Shown here: piece after piece, positions 14,230 through 16,770 of the stretch
Numbering within the stretch: position 1 is the first letter of the stretch
How the letters are laid out: each line of letters starts with the position of its first letter
NCBI GenBank assembly: GCA_017880705.1
Contig: JADGRS010000006.1
Location: 1 to 24,675, forward strand
Reading direction: 5' to 3'
Source of the DNA: Burkholderiales bacterium
GTDB taxonomy: Bacteria > Pseudomonadota > Gammaproteobacteria > Burkholderiales > Usitatibacteraceae
Length of the DNA: 24,675 nt
Translations under genes and position numbers: made by a program
The notes under the pieces: model-generated
The model's database searches: none
What the model was told of the DNA's origin: nothing
What the model saw: only the letters and a program-made list of their open reading frames with translations

Positions 14230-15047
14230 GGCTCGTCCAGTCTCAAGGTCAGGCACTTGGCCGATCCGCCCGCCTTCATGAACTCGGAGAGCGGCGTTTG
14301 CACGACCTCGAACCCCCGCCGTGCCAGGGCCTTCACGAACCCGGTCGAAGCGCGATTCACCACCACCGTCGAATCGACGTTCACCGCGTTGCACGCGAAC
14401 TCGAGGGCATCCTTCTCCTCGACGGCAATGCGCCTGTCCGCGGCGACCCGCCTCTCGATCGATTCGCGCGAGACATCGTCGAACGCCGCGGGGTAGTACA
14501 TCACGTAGCCGCCCTCGAGCGGGCAGAAGCAGGTGTCGAGGTGATAGAAGCGCTGGTCCACCAGCTTCAGCACCACGACGTCGAGGCCGAGGCGCTCGGC
14601 GAGAATCTCGCGCGCCGCGGGAATGGATCGGTGGCCGTGCGCCATCCACACGCACCCGTCGCCACGATCGAAGAGCGCGTCTCCCGCGCCCTCGAAGGGC
14701 ACGTCGCGCGGCATCAGCGAGACGTCGTAGCCGCGATCCATGAACCAGTCGGCGAAGTAAGGCTCCTCGGCCTGGCGCTCCGGGTAGCGGAAGCGCGACA
14801 CGACGAAGCGCTTCGATTTCACCAGCCCCGCGTTGGCGGTGAACACCATGTCGGGAGAGCCGGGCTGCGGCAGCACAAGGCGAACGGTGGCATGGTCCGT
14901 GAGCATGTCGTAGAGCGAGCGCCACTGCTGCTTGGCGACCGCGTTGTCGATCTTGCGCAGGTTTCCGTGCATCCAGGGGTTGATGATGTACGCCACGTTG
15001 AAGTACTCGGGCGGGCACATGAGGAAGACGCGGGCGCTGCGGGCCAT
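14226..15047 (-). CDS. Amidinotransferase/dimethylarginase superfamily protein (arginine-modifying hydrolase)
   Basis: A 273-residue protein of the guanidino-group-modifying fold shared by arginine deiminase, dimethylarginine dimethylaminohydrolase (DDAH) and the arginine dihydrolases (ArgZ/AgrE type). MCPPEYFNVAYIINPWM at the N-terminus, FTANAGLV (about 69-76), FEGAGDALF (about 118-126), YHLDTCFCPL with H169, and GGSAKCLTL with C265 match the conserved positions including the catalytic His and Cys. The product could be citrulline or ornithine plus ammonia or an amine; I cannot separate the subfamilies from sequence by eye. It follows a 547-bp gap and lacks a strong ribosome-binding site (GGAG about 14 nt upstream), and it opens the amidinohydrolase-DUF4124-patatin group. 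Confidence 0.86.
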   Translation of the reverse strand: MARSARVFLMCPPEYFNVAYIINPWMHGNLRKIDNAVAKQQWRSLYDMLTDHATVRLVLPQPGSPDMVFTANAGLVKSKRFVVSRFRYPERQAEEPYFADWFMDRGYDVSLMPRDVPFEGAGDALFDRGDGCVWMAHGHRSIPAAREILAERLGLDVVVLKLVDQRFYHLDTCFCPLEGGYVMYYPAAFDDVSRESIERRVAADRRIAVEEKDALEFACNAVNVDSTVVVNRASTGFVKALARRGFEVVQTPLSEFMKAGGSAKCLTLRLDEP

Positions 15048-15091
15048 GTTCTAGCGCCCCGCTCCGCCATAAACAGAAGCTATTGCGAGCA

Positions 15092-15229
15092 GGCGATGCC
15101 GGGGCGGTTCCTCTCGACCCGGCGGGGCTGCCTCTCCGGGATGCGTGAGAAGGAAACCTTGATTTGGTCGTCGCGATGTCGGCCAACCACCCACGCGCCT
15201 CTCGAGAGGAACCGCAACCCGTCCTCGCC
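15092..15229 (+). repeat. Structured repeat element, copy A
   Basis: A 138-bp hairpin-forming element. The inner stem is a perfect 14-bp inverted repeat, GCGGTTCCTCTCGA (15104-15117) with TCGAGAGGAACCGC (15202-15215). After a 2-nt bulge an outer stem pairs GGCGATGCCGGG (15092-15103) with 15218-15229 at 10 of 12 positions. The core 15115-15204 is 90 nt and aligns without gaps to the minus strand of copy B at about two thirds identity (60 of 90 by hand count). Shared blocks are CGACCCGG, AACCTTGAT, AACCACC and CTCTCG. It lies 44 nt upstream of the amidinohydrolase start, in the opposite orientation to that gene. Confidence 0.8.
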
Positions 15230-15430
15230 CGTGGCAGTGCGGACCGTCCCCGATTCTTGAGATGTGACCGCTCTGATGCTCCTCGCATCGCCGCGTGCCC
15301 AGGGCACTTGCAGCCCACTGGCGCGGGCTGCGCATCGCAAACGCGTCGCGCATCGCCGTTCCTCTTGGCGCGTCAATCAAAACTGTGGGGACTACGGACA
15401 CTCCTTCAGAAGCGAAGTTGACGGTGCCGC

Positions 15431-15576
15431 GCAATCCGGGAGCCATCGGGTAAAGGTCGAGAGGGCGCAAGGTGGTTGTTCGAAACCGCGCCGCCAACAT
15501 CAAGGTTTCTCTCCTCCGCCTCTGGAAGAGATGCTCCGCCCGGGTCGCACCTTTACCCGATGGCCACCCGGATTGC
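15431..15576 (-). repeat. Structured repeat element, copy B (inverted relative to A)
   Basis: A 146-bp hairpin-forming element. The inner stem is a perfect 15-bp inverted repeat: CCATCGGGTAAAGGT (15443-15457) with ACCTTTACCCGATGG (15549-15563). A 2/3-nt internal loop separates it from a perfect 10-bp outer stem, GCAATCCGGG (15431-15440) with CCCGGATTGC (15567-15576). The enclosed 90-nt core (read on the minus strand) matches the core of copy A. Its stem sequence differs from that of A at 7 of the 11 base pairs nearest the core, yet pairs perfectly. It begins 18 nt after the metZ stop, so it would be transcribed in the metZ 3' region. Confidence 0.8.
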
Positions 15577-15594
15577 ACGGTTGCAAAGATCACC

Positions 15595-16770
15595 TCACCC
15601 CTCCAGGCCGCGCTCTAGGTCGGCGCGGACGTCGGAGGGATCCTCGAGGCCCACGCCGAGACGCACCAGCCCTTCGACGATTCCGGAAGCGTCGCGTTCG
15701 GCGGGCGGGATGCGCCCGTGGGTCGTCGTGGCGGGATGGCAGATGGTCGTCTTCACGTCGCCGAAATTGGCGGTGATGGAGACGAGCTTCGTCGCGTCGA
15801 TGACGCGCCATGCCGCTTCGCGCCCGCCCTTCACGACGAACGAGAGCACCGCGCCGCCGGCGGATTGCTGCCGCATGGCGAGCGCGTGCCGCGGATGCGA
15901 GTCGAGCCCGGGGTAATTGACGCGCTCCACCGCGGGCTGCGCCTCCAGCCAGCGCGCGAGCTCGAGCGCATTCGCCGATTGCGCGTTCATTCGCAGGCGC
16001 AGGGTCTCCATTCCCTTGAGGCAGATCCATGCGTTGAAGGGCGAGATGGCGGGACCTGCGGTGCGCACGAAATTGAACAGCGGCCCGGTGACGAGATCGG
16101 CGCGGCCCGCGATCGCTCCGGCCAGCACGCGCCCCTGGCCGTCGAGATACTTGGTCGCCGAATGCACGACGAGATCGGCGCCGAACTCGATCGGACGCTG
16201 CAAGGCCGGCGAACACATGCAGTTGTCCACCGCTAGGACCGCGGCCGCGCCATGCGCGATGTCCGCGAGCGCCGCGATGTCGGCCACTTCGCACGCGGGG
16301 TTCGACGGCGTCTCGATGAAAAGCAGGCGCGTTTCCCGGCGCACCGCGCGCTTCCACCCGTCGATGTCGGTGAGCGGGACCCAGGTGGTCGCTATGCCGA
16401 GTCGCGCCAGGATCTGGTCGAAGAGCGGCACGACCGTGCCGAACACGCCGCGCGCGGCGATGATGTGATCGCCGCTCTTCAGCAGTCCGAGCGCAAGCGT
16501 GGCGACTGCCGCCATGCCGGTCGCGGTCGCGACACAGGCCTCGGCGCCTTCGAGCGCCGCGAGCCGGTCTTGGAACATCTTCACCGTCGGGTTGGTGAAT
16601 CGCGAGTAGATGTTGCCCGGCTCTTCGTTGGCGAACTTGCGCGCGGCTTCCGCGGCGCTCTTGTAGACGAAGCTGGTCGTCAGCGCGAGCGCCTCCGAAT
16701 GCTCCTGGAAATCGCTGCGCAGTCCGCCTGCACGGACACCGAGGGTGTCGGGCTTGTACTCGTTGGACAT
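15595..16770 (-). CDS. metZ: O-succinylhomoserine sulfhydrylase
   Basis: A 391-residue PLP enzyme of the Cys/Met-metabolism family, expected to condense O-succinylhomoserine with sulfide to homocysteine in methionine synthesis. The N-terminus YKPDTLGVRAGGLRSDFQEHSEALALTTSFVYKSAAEAA is characteristic of MetZ. YSRFTNPTVKMFQDRLAALEGAE binds phosphate, and HSATKYLDGQG carries the Schiff-base lysine K207. A C-terminal segment ITANFGDVKTTICHPATTTHGRI is typical of the family. It starts 8 nt after purF ends, the conserved purF-metZ order of beta- and gammaproteobacteria, which favours MetZ over cystathionine gamma-synthase. No obvious ribosome-binding site precedes its ATG, so coupling to purF is likely. 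Confidence 0.95.
   Translation of the reverse strand: MSNEYKPDTLGVRAGGLRSDFQEHSEALALTTSFVYKSAAEAARKFANEEPGNIYSRFTNPTVKMFQDRLAALEGAEACVATATGMAAVATLALGLLKSGDHIIAARGVFGTVVPLFDQILARLGIATTWVPLTDIDGWKRAVRRETRLLFIETPSNPACEVADIAALADIAHGAAAVLAVDNCMCSPALQRPIEFGADLVVHSATKYLDGQGRVLAGAIAGRADLVTGPLFNFVRTAGPAISPFNAWICLKGMETLRLRMNAQSANALELARWLEAQPAVERVNYPGLDSHPRHALAMRQQSAGGAVLSFVVKGGREAAWRVIDATKLVSITANFGDVKTTICHPATTTHGRIPPAERDASGIVEGLVRLGVGLEDPSDVRADLERGLEG

Follow-up and report, generated by a model that had tools for sequence, protein, structure and literature searches.

The stretch of Burkholderiales DNA analysed here (the window, 24,675 nt) carries an amidinohydrolase gene and a metZ gene, names taken over from a preliminary description of the same DNA, at a gene-to-gene spacing of 547 bp, the length which that description had given for a gene-free gap. 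Most of the spacing is occupied by a double-hairpin element at 15090..15582 (unstranded; limits approximate, with a left edge possibly near 15060), delineated by similar copies elsewhere in the genome and as extra sequence relative to five same-genus genomes. The element features two inverted hairpins on opposite strands, unit A at 15092-15229 (+) and unit B at 15427-15580 (-). In unit A, an imperfect outer 5' arm (15092..15103, plus strand, placed by fold and register) leads into a 14-bp inner 5' arm with TCGA at its end (15104..15117), which forms a perfect inverted repeat with the inner 3' arm (15202..15215) around a core, or loop, that starts with CCCGG and ends with CCTC (15118..15201). 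The 3' arm then continues through an AA bulge (15216..15217), found at the same place in 23 of 25 own-genome units, into the outer 3' arm (15218..15229, likewise placed by fold and register), and the outer stem comprises about 10 pairs with interruptions, including six of the eight pairs beside the bulge. In unit B, on the minus strand, the outer arm at 15427..15440, which by eye resembles that of copy L041, pairs at 13 of 14 positions with 15567..15580, a segment lying 14 bases away from where the metZ-like ORF ends (15595); the inner arm at 15442..15457 pairs perfectly over 16 bp with 15549..15564, and the core spans 15458..15548.

The preliminary description had proposed two diverged copies of one structure, A on the plus and B on the minus strand, and the perfect inner arms of both units bear this out. 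The cores align without gaps at 61 of 91 identical positions, close to its estimate of about 60 of 90, and outside TCGA the inner stems agree at 2 of 10 pairs while each stem is complete, as it had also noted. Its bipartite stems hold for both inner stems and for the outer stem of B, the outer stem of A being weaker. Folding of the 541-base stretch gave z = -4.8, with none of 100 shuffles folding equally well. The Rfam comparison that it suggested returned no family at gathering score in the window and none at E<=1 in 15040-15620.

A dispersed repeat of about half a kilobase

A genome search, also suggested in that description, identified A and B as the left and right ends of one many-copy repeat. 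Unit A gave 13 matches in its own genome (G000) and another copy at least 67 (40 of 80 candidates scored), and copies or parts of them lie on at least 34 contigs including that of the window, as counted from both match lists excluding flank-only and left-tip-only matches and a 39-base match on contig C375. Several contigs begin or finish within a copy. A full copy of about 0.5 kb consists of an A-type unit, a middle and an inverted B-type unit; L015, L040, L048, L108 and L110 are truncated derivatives, and in L110 the outer right arms are present without the inner arms and core, an arrangement read as a deletion. At L015:560-680 we observed a collapsed derivative, in which the first part of the core is followed by its own approximate reverse complement as one hairpin.

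The window copy is a mosaic relative to the stem types of these copies (T1A, T1B, T2 and T3), with T1-like hairpins (62-66% identity over 115-165 bases) and a T2/T3-like middle (79-81% over 123-129). The inner stem of unit A is like that of T1A at 9 of 10 pairs, the exception being one two-sided change, and that of unit B resembles T1B at 8 of 10. By DNA comparison, the middle segment (15264..15391, unstranded) shows about 80% identity to T2/T3 copy middles, namely 80.5% over 123 bases to L037, 81.3% over 123 to L044 and 79.1% over 129 to L050.

In G004, a complete genome of the same genus, the left hairpin is present at 11 places and the right one also at 9 of them, spanning about 500 bp, and besides the query copy seven copies match at 89-96% over 498-547 bp. 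While 87 pieces of this genome match one of its copies, for about 30 of them the match is confined to a different small repeat at the right end of the query. The flanks differ between copies, except at four that adjoin the same small repeat on the right: at L099, L102, L103 and L109 a small repeat containing AGGTCCTTCG lies directly right of the element, and it is present at about 30 other G004 places.

At the window site, the amidinohydrolase and metZ genes adjoin in all five other same-genus genomes searched, with matched gene parts 24-35 bases apart and, by extrapolation, 0-19 bases between the genes versus 547 here, so that a copy at this site is present in one of six genomes of the genus. 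Because the flanking genes nearly abut in those five relatives, the window copy is most simply interpreted as a probable insertion.

Outside these two genomes, a DNA search of six others with a G004 copy gave nothing in five and one 35-base match in G002 (E 3.6e-4), a silence that is weak evidence of absence, since G018, a genome of a second genus, has diverged copies yet no match to the G004 copy. Over 150 genomes, model R1 (22 candidates scored per genome out of hundreds to thousands) recovered at least 22 matches in G000, 20 in G004 and one weak match in G014, and missed the copies of the second genus. A loose pattern run over 300 genomes matched 13, G000 17 times and 12 others once each, compared with 10 matches in 9 genomes for a reversed-pattern control; 11 of the 12 single-match genomes were tested for pairing arms, one of which passed (G018, 10/10), and the twelfth, G004, is genuine. 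Loose-pattern matches in viral contigs (at least 120 stretches) were set aside as chance, with at most 6 of 10 flanking positions paired in the 121 scored, as was a single core-pattern match in the contig collection, on an Acidimicrobiales contig that shows no matching hairpin at that place. Plasmid and phage collections, searched with one copy each, gave no match.

A separate short palindromic repeat of the CGTCATTCCCGCGAAGGCGGGAATCCA type adjoins some copies (L024 at about 1998-2024; L036 at about 395-425) and by eye resembles published CGTC-tagged REPs. It accounts for most other-genome matches obtained when the query carried flank, and the resulting tally of 40 of 100 relatives was discarded as uninformative on the family, the match being to an unrelated widespread repeat (query about 8-34); from that search, only core matches in G004 count.

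Unit anatomy

Units of G000 and G004 are built in one order: a TCGA, exact or nearly so, precedes CCC and a G-rich helix, and beyond the loop a C-rich helix leads into TC and a second TCGA. They measure 110-132 bases including 10-base arms or 138-180 bp with full arms. Outside the core, an inner stem of about 10 bp is followed, in most own-genome units, by the AA bulge on the 3' arm and then by the outer stem. The two own-genome units in which AA does not directly follow the inner stem are W_B and L041, and neither of two G004 units has it. Pairing resumes best after skipping AA in T1A, T2 and T3 units except L044_2, the arm of which was cut one base short; in T1B units a simple bulge test gives 4-5 of 8 pairs and the predicted fold shows the bulge. 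The bulge is present with all four stem types although the pairs flanking it have changed.

The predicted minimum fold consists of two local hairpins in the window, L024 and L101 copies, and of one long left-right hairpin in three copies of the second genus and one T2/T3 copy. A supposed selection for differing left and right stems was abandoned, because within one element the T2 and T3 stems have 9 of 10 inner pairs in common. In unit cores such as L037:950-1030, a short minus-strand frame ending ...KKRKEFERKS-stop can be read by eye in some copies (alpha core); it may represent either the decayed 3' terminus of a gene or a chance occurrence.

Pairing is kept while stem sequence changes

To this comparison 26 units contributed, 24 from the own genome and 2 from G004, picked for recognisable arms on both sides, with L052_A (of 27 units; damaged 3' arm) and chimeric or cut units left out. 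Of 361 cells in 14 stem pairs, 95.6% are paired, a value on the high side because units were chosen with both arms recognisable, and 11 of the 14 pairs feature two-sided change. Changed cells comprise 73 two-sided and 2 one-sided (G.U) cases, with 16 further cells unpaired. Covariation amounts to 0.538, as opposed to 0.138 for shuffled and 0.102-0.212 for slid partners, and in 500 shuffles, which keep relatedness among units, four of five measures were reached by 0/500 and the number of further pair types by 5/500. Between stem types, arms cross-pair at 1-8 of 10 positions (the G4L entries being out of register by one), with the exceptions of T1A with W_A (9), T2 with T3 (9) and T1B with its variant (10). 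Together with the copies of the second genus described below, these data strongly support the earlier claim that pairing has been kept despite sequence change; the excess of two-sided change fits an RNA, a DNA structure or copying between arms alike and does not separate them.

Misregistration of W_B in alignment A1 accounts for its 5 failed or wobble cells; without this unit, the 348 remaining cells comprise 335 Watson-Crick pairs, 1 G.U, 8 A.C and 4 others. A larger stem table holds 31 A.C and 12 G.U over all rows, or 15 and 7 once the chimeric or mis-typed rows are removed (L003, L040, L041, L048, L051, L097). This paucity of G.U pairs favours pairing at the DNA level or copying between arms; if the element were an RNA, the A.C excess would weakly indicate the strand opposite unit A as the transcribed one.

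Related copies in a second genus

A copy from G018 (L083) matches 6 of 28 family genomes, all in the second genus, g3 (6 of its 8 genomes), and none in g2, and among 300 relatives the same six genomes are matched (two candidates scored per genome). G018 and G016 show two inverted hairpins, as does G010 less clearly, while G012 and G022 retain one unit and G020 has units with weak stems. Perfect runs in g3 stems reach 38 bp. As a DNA query the g3 copy finds no match in G000 or G004. A basal motif, TCGACCCGG/CCTCTCGA, is common to the two genera (window 15114-15122; L083:1500-1610), where loops and stems differ, and the CCC/TC basal loop recurs in some g3 units. Since both DNA searches and model R1 miss across genera, the probable homology of the elements of g3 and of the window's genus (g1) rests on this motif, architecture and size. 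Some g3 copies occupy orthologous places and are, for that reason, old. The middles of g3 copies at L273 (about 1640-2000) and L277 (about 190-480) contain an additional inverted repeat (GCGCCCTGTCGTGCCGCG...) as well as direct repeats.

Arms change together at an orthologous locus

One such locus is common to G018, G016, G012 and G022. The stem of its right unit is self-complementary at 38/38 positions in G018, 36/37 in G016 (2 gap columns) and 37/38 in G012. Between G018 and G016, the outer arms of this unit are identical at 15/24 (4 gap columns) and 13/26 positions, beside a loop at 73/83, a left flank at 45/45 and a next gene at 94.2%. The left unit of the same locus is closer between the two genomes (5' arm 27/28, 3' arm 30/36 identical) and features a one-base indel and one substitution, each mirrored in both arms; its other differences are one-sided, and the G016 left stem pairs at 33/37. 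Another orthologous 3' arm is 30/35 identical with 4 gap columns. As the left arms and this other arm stay similar, arm rewriting, if any, is episodic. Left and right loops within one element share variants (for example in G018_C201) and loops group uncleanly by locus, which makes conversion or exchange among units likely and a block replacement of the stem in the right unit possible.

Template switching can generate mirrored changes, as shown for RNA stems in the available text of PMC8794818, and the mirrored indel lends direct support to the arm-to-arm template switching that the preliminary description had offered as an alternative. Overall, stem evolution fits arm-to-arm copying combined with shape selection better than it fits a classical RNA gene. 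As a tentative and rather speculative extension, it is the folded shape rather than the sequence that might be inherited and propagated: arms would be rewritten both at once by arm copying, and could then diverge faster than loops, flanks and neighbour genes, with the bulge and basal loop motif held fixed because an enzyme or RNA reads the shape.

Gene context and search for a transposase

Genes were called at 38 loci (two being the same place) with an ad hoc caller trained on window genes. The 26 with a gene on both sides comprise 14 convergent, 10 tandem and 2 divergent arrangements (6, 3 and 1 in G004; 8, 7 and 1 in G000), as raw orientation counts without a background rate, and at 24 of these 26 at least one gene ends towards the copy. 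Both divergent copies (L110 and L052) are without an intact second unit.

No gene-bearing copy was met, including among the matches in the complete genome G004. The Y1 transposase family (PF01797), the sole transposase family sought, is present in 5 of 6 g1 genomes, including G001, G002 and G005, where no copy was found beyond the 35-base match in G002. Of the four matches in the two copy-bearing g1 genomes (1 in G000, 3 in G004), none lies beside a copy: the closest of those in G004 is some 3 kb away from L110, and the one in G000 is on contig C33, where the only trace of the element is a 35-base end fragment.

Interpretation

The element exists in many copies, represents extra sequence at the window site relative to five relatives, is frequently placed at gene 3' ends, keeps its pairing with changed sequence and shows one mirrored indel. 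We consider the window element to be probably a diverged copy of a dispersed, non-coding, non-autonomous repeat of mobile, REPIN/MITE-like type, about 0.5 kb long with hairpin ends; the non-autonomous element with long inverted ends, which the preliminary description had listed as an alternative, is thus the best fit to a dispersed repeat with a window copy that looks inserted. In such a model, a putative enzyme acting in trans would move the repeat by recognising the end hairpins, presumably in DNA that is single-stranded or extruded, in the way proposed for REPINs. Arm changes would each be copied onto the partner arm during replication, keeping the two complementary, and selection would maintain the shape, that is the bulge and the basal loop motif. 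Several points speak against the mobile-element reading, namely that no gene-bearing copy was met among the matches, that no Y1 gene is adjacent in G000 or G004, that no consistent target duplication was seen by eye, that some orthologous g3 copies are old, that the two units are inverted where IS200/IS605 end hairpins lie on one strand, and that the G016 left stem pairs at only 33/37.

It is rather unlikely that the element is a structured RNA or a 3'-UTR element, the hairpins of which would act in transcripts arriving from either side as a stabiliser or as a signal for processing or termination. Such a role would suit copies lying at gene 3' ends (24/26), and the inverted pair would present the same sense unit first to each of two convergent genes; the conservation of the loops, of the AA bulge and of the CCC/TC basal loop, as well as the very stable predicted folds, also agree with it. 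The pairing statistics point the other way, G.U being rare (1 versus 8 A.C without W_B, 12 versus 31 over all rows), no Rfam family matches, and the element is dispensable at the window junction, where five relatives do without it; by eye, intrinsic-terminator-like sequences adjoin some copies. The selection on a folded RNA or single-stranded DNA initially proposed is only partly supported: the persisting AA bulge suggests some selection on shape, but RNA-specific signs are absent from the wobble counts and from Rfam.

The stems could also be a pure mutational product, in which inverted repeats are homogenised by template switching or hairpin repair without function or pairing selection, and spread by ordinary transposition or recombination. 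The mirrored indel, the 73 two-sided against 2 one-sided cells (16 more being unpaired), the variants shared by left and right loops (as in G018_C201), which make conversion likely, and a mechanism published for RNA stems (in the available text of PMC8794818) are all in keeping with this explanation. We nevertheless judge it improbable, as the AA bulge survives in T1A, T1B, T2 and T3 while both flanking pairs have changed, and the CCC/TC loop recurs in some units of the other genus, where pure copying should tend to erase bulge and loop alike. Finally, it is highly improbable that the core is a small element inserting into the centre of existing palindromes, with stems that are target sequence: most stems are centred on TCGA, so that the arms plus one TCGA would read as a palindrome, but stem types (T1A, T2, T3, G004 copies) are common to many dispersed copies, which argues that the stem travels with the core.

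Comparison with known systems

Within the scope of our literature search, open-licence PMC papers, no description of this family was found. The dispersed hairpin-ended repeat nonetheless has features of several known systems. Template-switch hairpins, in the portion of Monttinen and Loytynoja (2022, PMC8794818) available to us, are similar in their perfect stems and in multi-base changes matched in both arms; the cases described there are RNA genes, whereas the present stems belong to a dispersed repeat and run perfectly for up to 38 bp in g3. Covariation is usually regarded as the best evidence of a functional RNA, and here it is strong in an apparent mobile DNA repeat. The mirrored indel and the few wobble intermediates make the family a natural test bed for pairing selection versus arm-to-arm copying, and orthologous copies in several genomes would make it possible to measure how fast, and over what tract lengths, arms are rewritten.

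Elements of the IS200/IS605 type carry short end hairpins on the same strand, with a bulge, and are not known to generate target duplications. The bulged hairpins near both ends are comparable, except that here they are long and inverted rather than same-strand. Bacterial MITEs are short, non-coding and multi-copy, with inverted ends, deletion derivatives and presence or absence between relatives. The element shares its non-coding nature, copy number, inverted ends, deletion derivatives and uneven presence among relatives with them, and differs in that both of its terminal repeats fold into hairpins of their own, with arms that covary. By eye, 8 G004 copies showed no target duplication, and neither the matches in the complete genome G004 nor the search for the Y1 family revealed a parent transposon.

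REPINs and REP-BIMEs (RAYT, TnpA-REP) are likewise intergenic, non-coding and multi-copy and consist of two inverted hairpin units with a spacer. REPs lie mostly between convergent and tandem genes, as does the element here (PMC3733652, in its available text), and dimers of REP units with different stems are reported in the accessible parts of PMC3733652 and PMC3116915. REPs measure about 20-60 bp, with the halves of GI REPINs 71 bp apart (PMC3116915, same parts), whereas our units with arms span 138-180 bp within an element of about 0.5 kb. Also unlike in REPINs, the ends carry no identified GTAG or CGTC tag, copies in G000 and G004 have no adjacent RAYT-type gene, and conservation does not reside in the stem sequence. 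The repeat adds a new family to a broad kind already known, the hairpin-bearing intergenic mobile repeats, distinguished by unusual arm evolution, and in its architecture it is a larger relative of REPINs.
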